64,000 bases of DNA, taken from assembly GCA_023264995.1 (NCBI GenBank), contig JAHFUR010000009.1, forward strand, positions 1 through 64,000. Direction: 5' to 3'. The translations under genes and the position numbers were made by a program. Under the pieces are notes generated by a model. It had not been told where the DNA came from. It searched no databases and worked only from the letters and a program-made list of their open reading frames with translations. This stretch comes from Acidimicrobiia bacterium. Lineage in GTDB: Bacteria > Actinomycetota > Acidimicrobiia > Acidimicrobiales > AC-14. Shown here one piece after another: positions 9,951 to 44,884 of this stretch (positions within the stretch are counted from its first letter, which is position 1; the number at the start of each line of letters is the position of its first letter).

Positions 9951-10328
9951 GTGAACCTGAACAACGTCATGCTGGGTTCGGAGGATCCGAGGGCCCTGGG
10001 TGCCTTCTACGGGAAGATCCTCGGTGCCCCCGACCCGGACTGGAGCGACGAGGCCAACGGCTGGTTCGCCTTCAAGGCGGGCGACGGCAGCCTGGCCGTC
10101 GGGCCGCACAGCGAGGTCAAGGGCCGCAGCCCGGAGCCGGCGCGGATCATGATGAACTTCGCCGTCGGCGACGTGAAGGCGGAGTTCGAGCGCATCCGGG
10201 CCCTTGGCGTCGAGGTCGTCGCCGAGCCCTACGACGCCGGCGGCGGCATGTACATGTGCACCTTCGCCGACCCGGACGGCAACTACTTCCAGCTGGCCCC
10301 GCCCTGGGACCCGCCCGAGGCCGGTTAG
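9951..10328 (+). CDS. VOC-family (glyoxalase-like) protein
   Basis: A 125-residue single VOC module: NNVMLGSEDPRALGAFYGKI, FKAGDGSLAVGPHSEV, IMMNFAVGDVKAEFERIRAL and the C-terminal metal-side motif MCTFADPDGNYFQLAPP. GTG 9951 has a good ribosome site (AAGGAG, 7 nt). The final beta strand with DPDGN is well preserved, so it is likely intact; substrate unknown. Its stop overlaps the stop of the convergent MFS gene by a few bases. Base composition is back to the very GC-rich norm here. Confidence 0.8.
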   Translation: MNLNNVMLGSEDPRALGAFYGKILGAPDPDWSDEANGWFAFKAGDGSLAVGPHSEVKGRSPEPARIMMNFAVGDVKAEFERIRALGVEVVAEPYDAGGGMYMCTFADPDGNYFQLAPPWDPPEAG

Positions 10329-11602
10329 GCGGCGACGATCACCTCGGGGGCCTCGCCGCCGGCCGGGGCCCCTTCGCCGGCCCGCCGGCGGAGGCCGACC
10401 CGTGACGCCGCGGCCACCGCGGCCGCCAGGCTGATGGCCCCACCCAGGCCCAGGCCGAAGCGCGGCCCCCACGCCTCGGAGATCCAGCCGAGGAGGGGGC
10501 CGCCCACGGGCGTGCTGCCCAGGAACAGCAGGCCGTAGAGGGCCATGACCCGGCCCCGCATAGCCGGGTCGGAGCCGAGCTGCAGGGTGGTGTTGGCCGT
10601 GGCCAGGAAGAGCATGACGGCCATGCCGGTGGGCACGAGGAGCACGCACGTCAGCCAGGCCGTCGGCGCCACCGAGGTGGCCAGCAACAGGGCGCCGAAG
10701 GCGATGCCCGCGCCGATCAGTACCCGGCGGGTGGGCCGGGCCCGGCTGGCCGCGTAGAGCGCGCCGGTGAGCGACCCCAGCGACATGAGCGACGTGAACA
10801 GGCTGTACAGGCCGGCGCCGCCCGAGAAGGTGAACTTGGCCAGCAGGGGCAGCACCACGATGAAGTTGAACCCGAAGAGGCCGAGCACGGCGACGAGGAA
10901 CAGGGTGGAGCGCAGGGTGGGGTCAGCCCACACGTAGCGCAGGCCGGCCCGCACCTCGCCCCGCTGGCGCTCGCTGCGCTCCCGCCGGTACAGCTCCTCG
11001 GGGCGCATGGCAATGAGGGCGGCGATCACGGCCAGGAACGAGATGGCGTTGGCCAGGAACGCCGGCGCGATCCCCAGGGTGGCGATGATCACGCCGGCCG
11101 CCGCTGGGCCAAGGATGCGCCCGCTGTTGTACATGGCGCTGTTGAGGCCCACGGCGTTGGGCACGTCCTCGGGGCCGACCATCTCGATGACGAACGACTG
11201 CCGGGTGGGCATGTCGACCATGGTCACCACCCCGAGCAGGAAGGCCAGCACGTAGACCATCCACAGCTCGACGGTGTGGGTGGCCACCAGGGCGAACAGG
11301 GCCAGGGCCAGGAGGGCGCCGGCCAGCTGGGTGACGACGAGCAGCTTGCGCTTGTCGCAACGGTCGGCCAGCAGGCCGCCCCACAGCCCGAAGAAGAGCA
11401 TGGGCACGAACTGCAGGGCGACGGTGATGCCCAGGTCCACACCGCTGCCGGTGAGGTTCAGCACCAGCCAGCTCTGGGCGACCGTCTGCATCCAGGTGCC
11501 ACTGACCGAGATCAGTTGACCGATGAAGAACAGCCGGTAGTTACGGATGTGCAGCGATCGGAACGTGCGGGCCCCGAACGCCCGCAGGTCGGCCCGGCTC
11601 AC
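10325..11602 (-). CDS. MFS exporter (EntS/MFS_3-like)
   Basis: A 425-residue inner-membrane transporter, predicted 10-12 membrane helices. N-terminal FRSLHIRNYRLFFIGQLIS and TWMQTVAQSWLVLNLTGS are typical of MFS_3/EntS-type exporters; the loop between helices 2 and 3 reads WGGLLADRCDKRKLL, a variant of the GxxxDRxGRR signature. NSAMYNSGRILGPAAAGVI marks the second signature. GTG start. It lies downstream of the MarR regulator, separated only by one copy of the intercistronic repeat, so it is probably a MarR-controlled efflux pump. Confidence 0.85.
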   Translation of the reverse strand: MSRADLRAFGARTFRSLHIRNYRLFFIGQLISVSGTWMQTVAQSWLVLNLTGSGVDLGITVALQFVPMLFFGLWGGLLADRCDKRKLLVVTQLAGALLALALFALVATHTVELWMVYVLAFLLGVVTMVDMPTRQSFVIEMVGPEDVPNAVGLNSAMYNSGRILGPAAAGVIIATLGIAPAFLANAISFLAVIAALIAMRPEELYRRERSERQRGEVRAGLRYVWADPTLRSTLFLVAVLGLFGFNFIVVLPLLAKFTFSGGAGLYSLFTSLMSLGSLTGALYAASRARPTRRVLIGAGIAFGALLLATSVAPTAWLTCVLLVPTGMAVMLFLATANTTLQLGSDPAMRGRVMALYGLLFLGSTPVGGPLLGWISEAWGPRFGLGLGGAISLAAAVAAASRVGLRRRAGEGAPAGGEAPEVIVAA

Positions 11603-11670
11603 TGGGCCACGCTGGCGTTGAGAGCGCGGCCCAGTGAGGGCTCGATGGGCCGGCCTCCCGGGCCGGTCAC
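11599..11670 (-). repeat. Single copy of the intercistronic hairpin/mini-ORF element (marR to MFS)
   Basis: The first 42 nt from the marR stop (plus 11669 down to 11628) match the nirB-nirD repeats at 39 positions. The element starts on the marR TGA and ends on the MFS GTG. It contains hairpin 1 (CCGGCC-CGGGA-GGCCGG) and hairpin 2 with a perfect 9-bp stem CACTGGGCC/GGCCCAGTG (11628-11636 with 11600-11608) that includes the MFS start codon. A 23-residue mini-ORF (GTG 11670, beginning MTGPGGRPIEPSLG and ending SVAQ) overlaps marR and MFS through GTGA at both ends. Confidence 0.75.
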
Positions 11671-12128
11671 TCCTCCTCCAGCAGCCGTTCGAAGACCACG
11701 GCCGCCCGTTCGAGCGCGGCCAGGTCGTCAGGGCTGAGGTCGCGGAAGCGCTCGGCCAGGTAGGCGTCCTTCTGCTGGCGACTCTCCTCGAGGAAGCTGA
11801 GGCCGGCCGCCGTGGCCTCGACCCGGGCCACCCGCCGGTCGGTCTGGTCGACGGTGCGGCTCACCAGCCCCAGCTCCTCGAGGCAGGCCACGATCTTGGT
11901 CATGGTCGGCGGTTTGACCCGCTCCGCCCCCGACAGCTCGCCCAGGGTCAACGGCCCCAGCCGCTCCACGCTGGACAGCGTGGCCAGCTGGGAGGGCGAC
12001 AGTTCGCCTGGGAGCTGGGTCCGGAGGCGTCGCGCCAGGCGGGTGACGACCAGGCGCAGGCGAGAGGCCAGTTCGGCCTCGGCCGTGTTCGAGGCAGTGG
12101 CGGTGGCGGTGGCAGGGGAGACGCTCAT
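11667..12128 (-). CDS. MarR-family transcriptional regulator
   Basis: A 153-residue winged-helix regulator. Seen: an N-terminal dimer helix (LASRLRLVVTRLARRLRTQL), the DNA-binding helix-turn-helix LTLGELSGAERVKPPTMTKI, the wing with QTDRRVARVEATAAG (the DRR motif), and a C-terminal dimer helix. MarR proteins usually repress a divergent or downstream efflux gene and release on ligand binding. It is followed by the MFS exporter and diverges from phhB over a short AT-rich spacer with a CTAATTAG palindrome. Confidence 0.88.
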   Translation of the reverse strand: MSVSPATATATASNTAEAELASRLRLVVTRLARRLRTQLPGELSPSQLATLSSVERLGPLTLGELSGAERVKPPTMTKIVACLEELGLVSRTVDQTDRRVARVEATAAGLSFLEESRQQKDAYLAERFRDLSPDDLAALERAAVVFERLLEEE

Positions 12129-12184
12129 TCTTTCCCTAGACTAATTAGCCGTACGAACTATTCCAAACCAACTACACAATCCCC
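12129..12184. promoter_or_regulatory. Divergent marR/phhB promoter region with palindromic operator candidate
   Basis: This 56-bp spacer is strikingly AT-rich for the window. It holds the palindrome CTAATTAG (12141-12148) and, on the minus strand, TAGTCT about 9 nt before the marR ATG. CTACACAAT lies just before the phhB ATG. The palindrome overlaps the presumed marR promoter, a natural MarR binding site. Confidence 0.4.
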
Positions 12185-15372: not shown

Positions 15373-17151
15373 TCAGTGCCCGGGCCGGCGCCGGCCCGGC
15401 CGCTGGGCAACAGAGGCGGGTAGACCACGCCACGACAGGCCGACCAGGACGAACCCGCAGGCCACCAGGGCGAGAGCCACCCGGGCCGGCCCGGCGACAT
15501 TGCTGCCGGTGCGGGAGAGGAGGCCGACGCGCAGCAGGGACGCCAGCGGCGCGGTCACCCGGAACGGCGTCTGGGCTACCCGACCCCCGCCGACCACGCT
15601 CACCCGGATGGTATGCGCCCCCGCCGGGGTGTTGGCCGGCACGGTGACCGTGAGGCTGAAGGTGCCGTTGGCGCCGGCGACCGCGGTACCGAGGAGCACC
15701 GGGTCGCTGAACAACTCGGCCCGAAGGGCGCTCCCGGGTGGGAAGCCGCTCCCCGTGAGGGTGGTGGACTGACCGGGCGCGACCGACGGCGGGGTGGCCC
15801 GGACCGAAGGCGGGGCCGTCGTGGTCGTGGTCGTGGTGCCGGCAACCGTCGTCGAGGTGGTCGACGACGTGGTTGTCGAGGTCGACGAGGTTGTCGAGGT
15901 CGAGGTCGACGTGGTTGTCGAGGTCGACGTGGTCGTCGAGGTCGACGAGGTCGACGAGGTGGTGGTTGACGTTGAGGTCCGCGTCGTCGAGGTCGAGGTC
16001 GAGCTCGAGGTGGTGGTCGGTGACGTCGTCGTGGTCGTCGGTGGCGCAATGGTGGTCGTGGTGGGGGCGACGGTGACCGACGTCGAGGTTGACGACGAAG
16101 GGGGTGCCACGGTCGTGCTCGTGGTCGACGTGGATCCGCCGGGCAGCGTGGTTGAGGTCGAGGTGGACGAGGTCGAGGTGGACGAGGTCGGCCCCGGCAC
16201 CGTGGTCGTGGTCGACGTGGGAGTAGTGGACGTCGGTGGCGTCGAGGTGGTGCTCGTCGACGAGCTAGTCGTCGACGAGCTGGTCGTGCCCGTCGGCACG
16301 GTGGTCGAGGTCGACGACGTGCTCGTGGTGCTCGACGTCGAGGTGGTGGAGCCGGTCGGCACCGTGGTCGACGTTGAGCTGGTCGAGGTCGACGACGTGC
16401 TGGTGGGCGGGGCCGTGGAGCTGGTCGAGGTGGGCGGCACGGTGGTCGGGGGGAAGGTCGTCGTCGTGGTGGTGGAGGTCGTCGAGCCCGTGATCGTGAC
16501 CACGTTCGACCCGTTGCAGGCCAGCGTGGCGGGTGCGTTGTTGGCGTCGCCGCCGTAGACGATCGCCCAGTGGTAGGTGCCGGCCGACGCCGGCGCGAAG
16601 TCGCCCGAGGTGGCCAGCCCGGTCACGTCGACGACGTTGGCCGACATGAAGACCTCGGCAGTGCAGGCCGCATCGCTGAAGAGCCGGAACGTCATGGTCC
16701 CGGTCGGCGTGTAGGAGAACAGCAGGCTCCCGGTGTCCCGCACCACGGTGCCCTGAGGGCCGCCGGCCGAGGGGTTGCCGAAGATGGACGGGGCCCGCTT
16801 GGCGATGGTCATGGAGAAGGTCTGGCAGCCAGGGGTCCCCAGACCGTTGCTGGCGCACACGGTGGTCGGCCCGAACGTGCCCGTCGCCGAGGGCGACCCG
16901 GCCAGGATGCCGCCGCCGTTCATGGTCAACCCTGGCGCGAAGGCGCCGGCGGAGAGCGAGAACGTGGGCGCCGGCTGGGCCGGGGTGGCGGTGAACTGGT
17001 GGACGTACAGGTTGCCGACGGTGCCGTTCAGCGGCGGGGGGCTGGTGATGGTGGGCGTGGTCTGGGCCGTGGCCGGGAGGCCGACGCCCAGTGACCAGGC
17101 CCCGACCATCCCGGTTATGGCAACCAATAGCCCGCGCCGTCGCCCGTCCAC
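15373..17151 (-). CDS. Cell-wall-anchored Thr/Ser-rich surface protein with sortase-like signal
   Basis: A 592-residue exported protein. Residues 1-30 form a signal peptide (basic MDGRRR, hydrophobic core, cleavage near ATAQ). A putative Ig-like/cadherin-like domain (PPPLNGTVGNLYVHQF) and a second beta domain with VYGGDANNAPATLACNGSN follow. A Thr/Ser-rich, mucin-like stretch of about 220 residues leads to a C-terminal IPT-like domain (VAPGQSTTLTGSGFPPGSAL). The end carries LLSRTGS, a hydrophobic helix and an Arg-rich tail, a non-canonical LPXTG-type sorting signal. GTG start has a strong ribosome site (GGGGGAGG). Confidence 0.78.
   Translation of the reverse strand: MDGRRRGLLVAITGMVGAWSLGVGLPATAQTTPTITSPPPLNGTVGNLYVHQFTATPAQPAPTFSLSAGAFAPGLTMNGGGILAGSPSATGTFGPTTVCASNGLGTPGCQTFSMTIAKRAPSIFGNPSAGGPQGTVVRDTGSLLFSYTPTGTMTFRLFSDAACTAEVFMSANVVDVTGLATSGDFAPASAGTYHWAIVYGGDANNAPATLACNGSNVVTITGSTTSTTTTTTFPPTTVPPTSTSSTAPPTSTSSTSTSSTSTTVPTGSTTSTSSTTSTSSTSTTVPTGTTSSSTTSSSTSTTSTPPTSTTPTSTTTTVPGPTSSTSTSSTSTSTTLPGGSTSTTSTTVAPPSSSTSTSVTVAPTTTTIAPPTTTTTSPTTTSSSTSTSTTRTSTSTTTSSTSSTSTTTSTSTTTSTSTSTTSSTSTTTSSTTSTTVAGTTTTTTTAPPSVRATPPSVAPGQSTTLTGSGFPPGSALRAELFSDPVLLGTAVAGANGTFSLTVTVPANTPAGAHTIRVSVVGGGRVAQTPFRVTAPLASLLRVGLLSRTGSNVAGPARVALALVACGFVLVGLSWRGLPASVAQRPGRRRPGH
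15826..16480. repeat. Imperfect tandem repeats encoding the Thr/Ser-rich linker
   Basis: A long run of variations on GTCGAGGTCGACG (plus strand) encodes S-T-S-T-T-style repeats in the surface protein. The units are short and degenerate, and the low-complexity DNA makes slippage and assembly error plausible. It is purely in-frame on the minus strand. Confidence 0.8.
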
Positions 17152-41717: not shown

Positions 41718-41774
41718 CGGGAGTTCACACAGTGGCAACGGCCGGCACACATGCGGTTGCTTCACTGGACGGAC

Positions 41775-44348
41775 ATGGCCTCACAACAGGACCGCAGGAC
41801 CCTCGTCGTCGCGGGCAACGGGATGGTCGGGCACAAGCTGCTCGAAATTCTCGTCGAACGGGGTGCCACCGCGGAGTGGGACCTGGTCACGTTCTGTGAG
41901 GAGCGCCGCCCGGCCTACGACCGGGTCGGCCTCAGCTCGTTCTTCAGCGGGACGAGCGCCGACGAGCTGTCGATGGTGGCCGAGGGCTTCTTCGACCAGC
42001 TCGGGCTCACCGTCCACCTGAGCGACGCAGTGGTGTCGATCGACCGGGCCGCCGGCGAGGTCGTGTCGGCCCAGGGCCGGCGGGTCGCCTACGACGCCCT
42101 GGTCCTGGCCACCGGTTCGTACCCGTTCGTGCCCCCCATCGCCGGCAACGACGCCCCCGGCTGTTTCGTTTACCGGACCATCGACGACCTGGAGGCCATC
42201 CGGGAGTACGCCGCCGGTTGCCAGACCGGCGCCGTCGTCGGCGGCGGCCTGCTGGGCCTGGAAGCGGCCAACGCTTTGCGCAACCTCGGCCTGACGACCC
42301 ATGTCGTCGAGTTCGCCGACCGGCTCATGCCCGTGCAGGTCGACGACGGCGGCGGGTCGGTCCTGCGCCGGCGCATCGAGGACCTCGGCGTGGCCGTCCA
42401 CACCGGCATGGCCACCACCGAGATCCTGGCCGACGAGGCCGGGCACGTCGCCGGCATGCGGTTCAAGGAGGGCGACGACCTCCCCGTGGGCATGGTCGTG
42501 TTCTCCGCCGGCATCCGCCCTCGCGACCAGCTGGCGCGTGACGCCGGCCTGGCCATCGGCGAGCGGGGCGGCGTGGTCGTCGACGAGGCCTGCCGCACCT
42601 CCGACCCGAGGATCTTCGCCGTCGGCGAGTGCGCGTTGTACGCCGGCCGCATCTTCGGCCTGGTCTCGCCGGGCTACCAGATGGCGCGGGTGGCGGCCGA
42701 CCGCATCCTGGGCGGCGAGGCCACGTTCACCGGTGCCGACATGTCCACCAAGCTCAAGCTGATGGGCATCGACGTCGCCAGCTTCGGCGACGCCTTCGCC
42801 ACCGGCGAGGGCTGCGAGGCCATCACCTACCGCGACCCGGTGGCCAACGTCTACAAGCGCCTGGTCCTCGGCCCGCCCGACCGCCGGGGCGACCGGGCCG
42901 TCGCCGGCGGCATCCTGGTCGGCGACGCCACCGTGTACCAGACCCTGCTGCAGATGTGCCGGGGCGACATGCCGACCCCCCGGCACCCCGAGGAGCTCAT
43001 CTTCCCGGCCAGCTCCGGCTCGGCCACCCCCGCGGTCGGCGTCGGCGCGCTCTCCCCGGCGGCGATGGTCTGCTCGTGCAACAACGTCGACAAGGGCACC
43101 ATCTGCGCCGCCGTCGCCGCCGGCTGCGACAACGTCGGCGCCATCAAGAAGATCACCAAGGCCGGTACGGGGTGTGGCGGGTGCGTCCCGCTGGTCACCG
43201 ACATCATGCGCGACGAGCAGCGCAAGGCCGGCATCGTCGTCCTCAACACCCTCTGCGAGCACTTCGCCTACTCCCGCCAGGAGCTCTTCGACATCGTGCG
43301 CGTGTCGCGGATCACCTCGTTCTCCGAGGTGTTGACCGCCCACGGGACGGGTGAGGGCTGCGAGATCTGCAAGCCGGCGGTGGCGTCGATGCTGGCGTCG
43401 CTGGCCAACGGCCACATCCTCGACGGCGAGCAGGCCGCCCTGCAGGACACCAACGACCACTTCCTGGCCAACCTCCAGCGCGACGGCACCTACTCGGTCG
43501 TGCCCCGGGTCCCCGGCGGCGAGATCACGCCCGACCAGCTCATCGCCCTGGGCGAGGTGGCCAAGGAGTTCAGCCTCTACACCAAGATCACCGGCGGCCA
43601 GCGCATCGACCTGTTCGGCGCCCGGGTCGACCAGTTGCCCCACATCTGGCGGAAGCTGATCGACGCCGGCATGGAGTCCGGCCACGCCTACGGTAAGGCC
43701 CTGCGCACGGTGAAGTCCTGCGTGGGCCAGACGTGGTGCCGGTACGGCGTGCAGGACTCCACCGCCCTGGCCATCGACCTGGAGCTGCGCTACCGCGGCC
43801 TGCGCGCCCCCCACAAGCTCAAGGGCGCGGTGTCCGGCTGCACCCGCGAGTGCGCCGAGGCCCAAGGGAAGGACTTCGGCGTCATCGCCACCGAGAGGGG
43901 CTGGAACGTCTACGTCGGCGGGAACGGTGGCATGCGGCCCCGCCACGCCGAACTGCTGGCGGCCGACCTCGACCGGGAGGCAGTGTTCCGGTACCTCGAC
44001 CGGTTCCTCATGTTCTACGTGCGCACCGCCGACCGGCTCGAGCGCACCTCGGTCTGGCTCGACAAGCTCGACGGCGGCATCGAGTACCTGCGCCGGGTCG
44101 TCATCGACGACGTCCTGGGCATCTGTGCCGAGCTCGAAGCCGACATGGCCCGCCACGTCGAGACCTACGAGTGCGAGTGGAAGGCGGTCGTCGACAACCC
44201 CGAGCGGATGGAGCGGTTCCGCACGTTCGTCAACTCCGACGAGCCCGACCCCAACGTGGTCTTCGTCACCGAGCGGGGCCAGCCCCGGCCCGCCTACTTC
44301 CACGAGAAGCCGGACCCCGCCCTGCTGGCCATCGGCGCCAAGCCATGA
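41775..44348 (+). CDS. nirB: Assimilatory nitrite reductase large subunit
   Basis: An 857-residue siroheme enzyme reducing nitrite to ammonium with NAD(P)H. Order: N-terminal FAD/NAD(P) oxidoreductase (LVVAGNGMVGHKLLE, LATGSYPFVPPI, GAVVGGGLLGLEAANAL); BFD-like [2Fe-2S] domain with Cys433, Cys435, Cys467 and Cys470; ferredoxin-like sulfite/nitrite reductase half-domain; then the [4Fe-4S]-siroheme site with Cys649, Cys655, Cys689 and Cys693. All cofactor ligands are intact. ATG 41775 is preferred over ATG 41751. Its stop is the first base of the intercistronic repeat array before nirD. Confidence 0.95.
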   Translation: MASQQDRRTLVVAGNGMVGHKLLEILVERGATAEWDLVTFCEERRPAYDRVGLSSFFSGTSADELSMVAEGFFDQLGLTVHLSDAVVSIDRAAGEVVSAQGRRVAYDALVLATGSYPFVPPIAGNDAPGCFVYRTIDDLEAIREYAAGCQTGAVVGGGLLGLEAANALRNLGLTTHVVEFADRLMPVQVDDGGGSVLRRRIEDLGVAVHTGMATTEILADEAGHVAGMRFKEGDDLPVGMVVFSAGIRPRDQLARDAGLAIGERGGVVVDEACRTSDPRIFAVGECALYAGRIFGLVSPGYQMARVAADRILGGEATFTGADMSTKLKLMGIDVASFGDAFATGEGCEAITYRDPVANVYKRLVLGPPDRRGDRAVAGGILVGDATVYQTLLQMCRGDMPTPRHPEELIFPASSGSATPAVGVGALSPAAMVCSCNNVDKGTICAAVAAGCDNVGAIKKITKAGTGCGGCVPLVTDIMRDEQRKAGIVVLNTLCEHFAYSRQELFDIVRVSRITSFSEVLTAHGTGEGCEICKPAVASMLASLANGHILDGEQAALQDTNDHFLANLQRDGTYSVVPRVPGGEITPDQLIALGEVAKEFSLYTKITGGQRIDLFGARVDQLPHIWRKLIDAGMESGHAYGKALRTVKSCVGQTWCRYGVQDSTALAIDLELRYRGLRAPHKLKGAVSGCTRECAEAQGKDFGVIATERGWNVYVGGNGGMRPRHAELLAADLDREAVFRYLDRFLMFYVRTADRLERTSVWLDKLDGGIEYLRRVVIDDVLGICAELEADMARHVETYECEWKAVVDNPERMERFRTFVNSDEPDPNVVFVTERGQPRPAYFHEKPDPALLAIGAKP

Positions 44349-44546
44349 CCGGCCCGGGAGGCCGGTCCATCGAGCATTCACTGGGCCATCCCTCGAAGAG
44401 GGTGGACCAGTGACCGGCCCGGGAGGCCGGTCCATCGAGCATTCACTGGGCCATCCCTCGAAGAGGGTGGACCAGTGACCGGCCCGGGAGGCCGGTCCAT
44501 GAGACATTCATTGGGAGGCACGCCCGAAGGGCGTGTGGACCAATGA
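44345..44546 (+). repeat. Three tandem copies of an intercistronic hairpin element between nirB and nirD
   Basis: Units at 44346-44410 and 44411-44475 are identical (65 bp); the third (44476-44542) shares its first 25 bases and then diverges. Every unit begins TGACCGGCCCGGGAGGCCGG, giving hairpin 1 (CCGGCC-CGGGA-GGCCGG). Hairpin 2 closes on the next start codon: CACTGG...CCAGTG in units 1-2 and CATTGG...CCAATG in unit 3, with tip stems CCCTC-GAA-GAGGG or CACGCCC-GAA-GGGCGTG. The array starts exactly on the nirB stop and ends on the nirD ATG. A related single copy lies between marR and the MFS gene. Confidence 0.9.
44345..44546 (+). other. Chain of three overlapping mini-ORFs in the repeat array
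   Basis: Each unit encodes a short frame: ATG 44345-44413 and GTG 44410-44478 (22 residues, MTGPGGRSIEHSLG...KRVDQ), then GTG 44475-44546 (23 residues, MTGPGGRSMRHSLG...GRVDQ). Neighbouring frames overlap by GTGA, and the outer ones overlap the nirB stop and nirD start by ATGA. Ribosomes could therefore pass from nirB to nirD by repeated stop-start coupling. Whether the peptides are stable or functional is unknown. Confidence 0.5.
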
Positions 44547-44884
44547 CGATGTTGGTCTCCAAGGTCTGGGTCGACATCTGCCCCCTCGACAAGCTCATCC
44601 CCGGCCGGGGCGTCTGCGCGCTGGTCGGCGGGCTCCAGGTCGCCGTGTTCCGTATCGCCGGCGAGGAGATCTACGCCATCTCCAACTTCGACCCCTTCAG
44701 CGGGGCGTTCGTCTTGTCGCGGGGCATCGTCGGCTCCCGGGCCGAGCGGCTCAAGGTGGCGTCGCCCATCTACAAGCAGAGCTTCGACCTGGTCACCGGC
44801 GTCTGCCTCGACGACGCCACCCGGTCGGTGCGGACCTTCGAGGTGCGCGTCGCCGGCGGCATGGTGCAGGTCGCCAGTCCGTGA
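44543..44884 (+). CDS. nirD: Nitrite reductase small subunit
   Basis: A 113-residue Rieske-fold protein of the NirD type: VWVDICPLDKLIPGRGVCAL, VAVFRIAGEEIYAISNFDPF and SPIYKQSFDLVTGVCLDD. As in NirD generally, the Rieske Cys/His cluster ligands are absent (no CxH motifs). It partners NirB. ATG 44543 overlaps the last mini-ORF stop by ATGA; ATG 44549 is a possible alternative. It overlaps the ferredoxin/anchor gene by GTGA. Confidence 0.92.
   Translation: MTMLVSKVWVDICPLDKLIPGRGVCALVGGLQVAVFRIAGEEIYAISNFDPFSGAFVLSRGIVGSRAERLKVASPIYKQSFDLVTGVCLDDATRSVRTFEVRVAGGMVQVASP

Follow-up and report, generated by a model that had tools for sequence, protein, structure and literature searches.

A short tandem array lies between nirB and nirD in the DNA of an Acidimicrobiia bacterium (contig JAHFUR010000009.1), of which we analyzed positions 1 to 64,000, hereafter the window. 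At 44345-44546, three units are joined to each other and to the two genes by four-nucleotide stop-start overlaps of the form RTGA, where R is A or G. As the original prediction had proposed, the units fill the whole gap between the nirB stop codon and the nirD start codon, and the overlaps run in the order ATGA, GTGA, GTGA, ATGA, with the nirB stop in the first (44345-44348) and the nirD ATG in the last (44543-44546). The small frames, for which 22-23 codons linked by chained overlaps had been claimed, indeed comprise 22, 22 and 23 codons plus stop, each opening on one overlap and closing on the next. Two units of 65 bp were correctly described, whereas the third, given as 67 bp, is 68 bp long, and the pair said to be identical is nearly so, its sole difference being the first base (A or G). 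Pfam matches upheld the identities of both genes (NIR_SIR, NIR_SIR_ferr, Fer2_BFD and Pyr_redox_2 for nirB; Rieske_2 for nirD).

The array received a Tandem Repeats Finder (TRF) score of 317, and its 24-nt core, allowing up to 3 mismatches, matched the window at 4 places and 100 shuffled versions at none. The array folded better than all 200 shuffled versions (z -7.2), and four units folded singly (z -4.4 to -8.4) shared one architecture, in which the stem-loop GACCGGCC-CGGGA-GGCCGGTC (hairpin I) is followed by a linker and then by hairpin II, which is long and has the next ...RTGA as its 3′ arm. Given the TRF score, the shuffled-core result and the comparison of folds with shuffles, the repeat is not a chance product. 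When 44250-44700 was searched against Rfam 15, no family reached its gathering score, the seven weak matches at E ≤ 10 all lying far below. The positions of the features are collected in Table 1.

Table 1. Features of the nirB-nirD junction and of the further single copy in the window.
Feature	Position	Strand	Remarks
nirB	41751..44348	+	Upstream gene; TGA in first overlap
Unit 1 with closing GTGA	44345..44413	+	Small frame MTGPGGRSIEHSLGHPSKRVDQ, then stop
Hairpin I of unit 1	44347..44367	+	GACCGGCC-CGGGA-GGCCGGTC; from core positions and the folding of units 2 and 3
Hairpin II of unit 1	44378..44413	+	3′ arm with next GTGA; inferred from near-identical unit 2
Unit 2 with closing GTGA	44410..44478	+	Small frame VTGPGGRSIEHSLGHPSKRVDQ, then stop
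Hairpin I of unit 2	44412-44432	+	Repeat of hairpin I
Hairpin II of unit 2	44443..44478	+	3′ arm with next stop/start GTGA; from fold
Unit 3 with closing ATGA	44475..44546	+	Small frame VTGPGGRSMRHSLGGTPEGRVDQ, then stop
Hairpin I of unit 3	44477-44497	+	Repeat of hairpin I
Hairpin II of unit 3	44508..44546	+	3′ arm with nirD ATGA, 5′ arm with matching TCAT; from fold
nirD	44543..44884	+	Downstream gene; ATG in last overlap
MFS transporter gene	10328..11602	-	Downstream of single copy; given without its stop
Further single copy	11599..11670	-	Junction of MarR-family and MFS genes; GTGA at both edges
Core of further single copy	11645-11668	-	Fourth core match in window
MarR-family gene	11670..12140	-	Upstream of single copy; given as an open stretch, stop excluded; start not fixed

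Dispersal, placement and length of the units

The array is a member of a dispersed family that is not confined to nirBD. BLAST with the array as query returned 44 places at E ≤ 10, many of them weak, in the 3.8-Mb genome to which the window belongs (G000), and a covariance model of the two hairpins (R1), for which the same genome supplied 24 distinct units, gave 75 matches there at E ≤ 1, some of which are mirror matches on the opposite strand. At E ≤ 0.001, the model matched 7 of 60 genomes, comprising this one and its relatives. The family is widespread in its genus, with 45 matches in G000 and 24 and 30 in the congeners G001 and G002 (counts that include a few other-strand mirror matches), and extends beyond it to G006 (6), G019 (2), G005 (1) and G034 (1). 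A sample of the order, searched at E ≤ 1e-5, yielded matches in 7 of 298 genomes and added two from another family of the order, G074 (14 matches) and G111 (4), while among 396 genomes sampled across the phylum only the window's own was matched and none outside the order; the order and phylum scans used stricter filters, by which weak matches can be lost. When the species collection was scanned for exact copies of the core, 30 stretches emerged, 29 of them in metagenome-assembled genomes of Acidimicrobiia, Acidimicrobiales or Actinomycetes (nzgw82, 15; AVDCRST_MAG10, 10; nzgw85, 3; nzgw83, 1) and one in Actinomadura (L151). The latter was rejected as a copy, as it overlies the end of a short frame, MRNVVYFFWYDRPGRPVCQTLR followed by a stop, and has no hairpin II by eye; this frame resembles an attenuator leader peptide. 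The array had no match in the phage and plasmid collections by blastn at E ≤ 0.001. The model search covered 91 of 167 loci, the remainder being overlapping loci and the 30 exact-core stretches. Since cmsearch discards neighbors that overlap by 4 nt, units in tandem arrays are undercounted in that search, and one of two near-identical arrays at L135 in G006, both counted, may be an assembly duplicate because a run of N separates them.

Placement was assessed for 85 arrays spread over 7 genomes (30 of them in the window's genome; one mirror hit, L022 minus, was dropped). All six frames flanking an array on either side were scored by codon usage, with two window genes as the training set. In 70 of the 85 arrays, the best-scoring open frame upstream ended on the 5′ TGA, and in the same number the best-scoring open frame downstream began on the 3′ RTG. 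Both ends coincided exactly with a gene edge in 57 arrays, and at least one end in 83. Edges were GTGA/GTGA in 39 cases, ATGA/GTGA in 24, ATGA/ATGA in 9 and other combinations in 13. With genes called roughly, the window contains 738 RTGA tetranucleotides, 14 of them at junctions and 143 fully intergenic, so that neutral insertion outside genes would place about 9% of copies at junctions; the observed placement is far from this expectation. The original prediction would have been undermined had most copies lain away from junctions or on random strands, and the 83 arrays with a same-strand gene edge in the best frame speak otherwise; its central claim, that the element occupies stop-start overlaps and restores such an overlap on both sides, is supported.

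Pfam analysis of the genes that flank arrays in the window's genome (10 downstream, 10 upstream) revealed no common theme. They include three consecutive genes for an argC-type semialdehyde dehydrogenase, ArgJ and an amino acid kinase (argC-argJ-argB type), a dihydroorotase-like gene and the carbamoyl-phosphate synthase small chain (carA), the pairs UDG-TsaE, ClpS-DUF2017, FHA-PP2C, MarR-MFS and ABC-ABC3, a ubiE-type gene and a chorismate-binding enzyme, and branched-chain amino acid transporter genes. This dispersal over unrelated operons counts against a role specific to nirBD. It also bears on the idea that the units arose at each junction by tandem slippage alone, with no insertion elsewhere. 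Slippage or unequal exchange would best explain tandem growth within an array, but a core of about 21 nt recurs at dozens of unrelated junctions on many contigs; slippage thus fits the growth in copy number and not the dispersal, and we give local duplication as the whole explanation almost no credence.

Length statistics were derived from 96 of 125 model matches (those of at least 40 bits), with unit ends taken from the covariance model. Fourteen lacked TGA at one end, including the mirror hit of its own unit at L022, which left 82. The length of 79 of these leaves a remainder of two on division by three (2 mod 3), over nine length classes (44, 50, 53, 59, 62, 65, 68, 89 and 92), and the frame is open up to the TGA in 78, with inner frames of 15 to 31 codons (22-23 in the nirB-nirD array). 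The rule was obeyed by 60 of 63 units that are not in the model, by 50 of 52 outside the window's genome and, in G074 and G111, by 15 of 18 units with ends chosen by eye (18 of 20 rows were used, omitting one duplicate locus and one twin unit).

Such frames could be taken as genes for a functional micropeptide (M/VTGPGGRSxxHSLG...). The first eight codons are strongly conserved, and PGG is kept where the stem of hairpin I changes; however, the conserved stretch, codons 1-8, is also that of hairpin I, and the 50-bp units (e.g., L026) have a linker one base shorter, so that CATTCAC is read in another frame (...SIHGAGAP, then stop) while the total is still 2 mod 3. This shift of the 3′ half indicates that it is the length rule that is held, and not the C-terminal peptide. 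We therefore regard a micropeptide as very unlikely.

Empty sites, a second family and fusions to proteins

The gene ends from 15 junctions of the window's genome served as a joint query in seven relatives. The 60 junction stretches that were read cover 12 of the 15 sites, all but L100, L003 and L012; empty-site junctions were read directly, and an alignment by MAFFT misplaced part of the flank. At 10 of the 12 sites, at least one congener has a plain RTGA overlap. The nirB-nirD junction reads AAGCCATGACGATG in G001 and AAGCCATGACCGTG in G002, a plain ATGA overlap in both, such that the junction in the window's genome is 198 bp longer than those of its congeners. The element is likewise absent from this junction in G005, where the overlap is ATGA, and in G006, where it is GTGA.

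The original prediction had suggested that the array might tune nirB:nirD ratios, with copy number setting the ratio by repeated termination and reinitiation, and the array could accordingly be a regulator under positive selection. The number of cores per array does vary from 1 to 4, with 16 of the 85 arrays in tandem, and the junction before pyrD (assigned by sequence) has four cores in G002 (L062) and a partial one in G000 (L094). On the other hand, the family is spread over unrelated operons, and the nirB-nirD junctions of the four relatives named above lack the element. Copy number may affect coupling in a general way; that the array was selected as a nirBD regulator seems unlikely to us.

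At two of the 12 sites, other inserts were present in a congener, namely at argJ-argB in G002 and at a branched-chain transporter junction in G001. The argJ-argB overlap is ATGA in a congener, and in the window's genome the element has ATGA at its left end and GTGA at its right end. In G002, this junction holds two 104-bp units of different sequence, running from a TTGA or GTGA stop to a GTGA start and seen on two contigs; blastn between these and the first family found nothing longer than 8 bases. With this array and its argJ flank as query, matching rows numbered 38 in G002, 1 in G000, 2 in G001 and 2 in G006, of which the G000 row and one G001 row are gene flank. By motif, 30 copies of this second family, represented in G002 by L235, L236 and L270-L298, were located. 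Fifteen of the 20 in which both edges could be recognized are 2 mod 3, and some of the remaining copies lack TGA edges; the second family therefore obeys the length rule less strictly. Its unit of about 104 bp has a CAGGAGACAC-like end before the RTGA, with a purine-rich, CAGGAGA-like stretch a few bases ahead of the RTGA that looks like a Shine-Dalgarno sequence. At one junction of G002 (L279/L125, contig C70), a second-family unit leads straight into a first-family unit at a shared GTGA. The existence of a second, dissimilar family with the same habit indicates that the habit is not bound to one sequence. Two other junctions were of different makeup: the G001 insert at the branched-chain amino acid transporter junction (L245, contig C177) spans 77 nt from ATGA to ATGA and by eye belongs to neither family, and argJ-argB in G003, from another genus of the same taxonomic family, has a GC-rich gap of about 223 nt (L239, contig C20).

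Several copies are fused to proteins. The dihydroorotate dehydrogenase of the window's genome begins with the first codons of the element (VSGPGGRP..., L094), and the G002 gene at the equivalent site, judged by sequence, begins VTGPGGRS... (L062). An ABC-2 permease (L029) likewise begins with element codons, and the C-terminus of a glycosyltransferase (L101) is a whole unit (...QTGPGGRGDKHSLGLAPKGSVDQ, then stop). Fusions of this kind represent a route from such repeats to protein ends.

Hairpins and a candidate mechanism

Covariation was assessed in 27 hand-picked 72-nt units of G001, G002, G074 and G111, none of which is in the model. Paired cells amounted to 88.4%, against 82.2% in shuffles, 11 pairs had changed on both sides, and none of 500 shuffles scored as high on any of five measures. 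When partners were slid out of register, 27-42% of cells were paired, against 88%, and covariation was 0.024-0.086, against 0.185, although a slide of +3 also gave 10 two-sided pairs. Adding four units that this set had left out (L109, L113 and L128, 72-nt units of G001/G002, and L306) gave similar values for 31 units: 87.8% paired, 16 two-sided pairs (6-11 in slid versions) and no shuffle among 500 as high. Other length classes and array twins stood outside both sets. The 24 units of the window's own genome were weaker on two of the five measures, on which 6 and 30 of 500 shuffles were as high.

A stable two-hairpin fold with compensatory change might suggest a cis-acting RNA switch or attenuator common to these operons and not mobile. 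Yet no Rfam family reached gathering score, the named flanking genes have no metabolic theme, tandem copies are near-identical and junctions of close relatives lack the element; we find this reading highly improbable.

We then considered the arm base of hairpin II that faces the start codon. Among 62 single-unit arrays it forms C-G in 47, T-A in 7 and A-T in 1, and is mismatched in 7 (two of them G-U). This base tracks the R of the 3′ tetranucleotide (Fisher 1.6e-7, from the 56 arrays that fall in a C/T by G/A table) and not that of the 5′ one (Fisher 0.13, 54 arrays). The right RTGA thus seems to be the element's own, and the left one that of the old junction. At a junction that by its flanks appears common to G001 and G002 (L108/L078), GTG with TCAC in one copy stands against ATG with TCAT in the other. 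The present family works in a way slightly similar to that of the IS200/IS605 family and of the miniature inverted-repeat transposable elements (MITEs) derived from it, with an internal arm that would pair with the element's own right-end tetranucleotide, the left one seeming to be the target. The placement of its hairpins differs from that in IS608. The arm statistics are consistent with, and not specific to, an IS200/IS605-like guide pattern, and a difference from that group is that G000, G001, G002 and G006 have no Y1_Tnp match. Tentatively, the TCAY arm (where Y is C or T) could be a guide by which the element picks and rebuilds an RTGA through pairing; any RTGA-reading arm together with a 2 mod 3 length might then suffice for life in stop-start overlaps. 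Such elements would form a convergent class with the translational overlap as its niche, of which this one genus would hold two or more dissimilar families and the mycobacterial interspersed repetitive units (MIRUs) would be a third case. We hold this idea to be rather doubtful.

Taken together, it is very probable that the element is a MIRU-like, non-autonomous mobile repeat that sits at RTGA overlaps and survives by preserving translational coupling. What has been demonstrated at the level of sequence is the placement at junctions, the empty junctions of relatives, the open inner frame, the right RTGA matching the element's own arm, and the tandem units; coupling, mobility and the mobilizer we infer. 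Copies would spread by insertion into the 4-nt RTGA stop-start overlaps. A ribosome ending the upstream gene would restart on the overlapping RTG, translate the small frame, melting hairpin II, and end on the next overlap, there to restart on whichever unit or gene follows. Masking of the start codon by hairpin II may keep free ribosomes away, such that the downstream gene would stay coupled to the upstream one, and the element may persist in dense operons because it is low in cost and nearly neutral. Coupling at overlaps is firmly documented in other organisms: it was strict in 13 of 14 gene pairs tested, and structures are described that bar 30S subunits from the downstream start as long as the upstream gene has not been translated (PMC6728339).

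A number of observations weigh against this interpretation. The 5′ and 3′ edge tests were each failed by 15 of the 85 arrays, and a neighboring element (L125) or a fusion (L101) accounts for some of these failures and not for all. Two of the 12 sites compared, clpS and FHA-PP2C, have TAG stops in both congeners and no RTGA overlap, the start lying 8 nt before the TAG in the former and, in the latter, 3 or 5 nt downstream of the T of the TAG. The frame is broken in 3 of 82 units, one of which (L021) has no downstream gene in that frame, and matches may lean toward 2 mod 3 because all units used to build the model obey it. Neither the 27-unit nor the 31-unit set has a two-sided change at the start-codon pair, whose covariation rests on the 24 units of the window's genome (18 C-G, 4 T-A) and on the table of 62 arrays. 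Related sequences can outscore shuffles in the absence of structure, and, given the near strand symmetry of the hairpins, pairing in DNA would serve equally well, so that covariation is no proof of an RNA role. The bias toward junctions may be caused by target choice or by selection. Movement within a species was not seen in the genomes compared, and no larger autonomous copy turned up, none being specifically searched for. Finally, the Y1 transposase (PF01797) had no match in G000, G001, G002 and G006, whereas 6 of 14 control genomes had matches; it was therefore rejected as the mobilizer, although another strain may carry a transposase.

Relation to known elements

The original prediction held that no described element behaves in this manner. 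This was mistaken, as a 2025 review (PMC12548453, citing Supply et al., 1997) describes MIRUs as apparently mobile, inserting at start codons, with an open reading frame (ORF) coupled at -4 nt and a likely minimal impact on expression. According to a second source, 77-bp and 53-bp tandem units lie between senX3 and regX3 (PMC4213456); both lengths, by our own arithmetic, are 2 mod 3, the same rule as in the present family. By these descriptions, the two groups share short, apparently mobile repeats at start codons, an internal ORF with 4-nt overlaps and tandem arrangement in operon junctions. Compared feature by feature, the present family has an ORF overlapping both neighbors by 4 nt (79 of 82 lengths, 57 of 85 arrays), empty sites in relatives (10 of 12) and direct tandem repeats of varying number (16 of 85 arrays), whereas its host is not a mycobacterium but a member of another class, Acidimicrobiia. 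It may also differ in having two hairpins, the second of which includes the next start codon. We liken the family to MIRUs, by description and not by sequence, as working in what appears to be the same way, and do not file it as MIRU. The open-access literature yielded no element of such kind besides MIRU among the matches listed.

Other small repeats resemble the family less closely. Repetitive extragenic palindromic (REP) sequences lie outside genes, in bacterial interspersed mosaic elements (BIMEs) of alternating orientation, and are associated with REP-associated tyrosine transposases (PMC2817692). The REP/BIME group is likewise small, dispersed and hairpin-forming, with no internal transposase gene; the present units, however, repeat in direct orientation and are bound to start and stop codons, and the four genomes searched have no Y1-type transposase. 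Rickettsia palindromic elements and other ORF-bearing bacterial MITEs fuse in frame inside proteins (PMC2229807). They too are small and have an open frame that permits translation with host genes, but the copies described here lie mostly between genes and keep them separate, with few fusions (L094, L029, L101).

What is new is thus the family itself, its clear hairpin design and the parallel second family, the MIRU-like habit being already known from mycobacteria. The MIRU way of life extends to another actinobacterial class, in two dissimilar families, one of which has this design, and small repeats may repeatedly have found a safe harbor in the 4-nt overlap. The many filled and empty natural junctions could be used to measure the effect of an inserted coupled frame on operon output. 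Elsewhere in the window, at 15848-16448, TRF detected a long run of degenerate tandem repeats of the GTCGAG/GTCGACG type.

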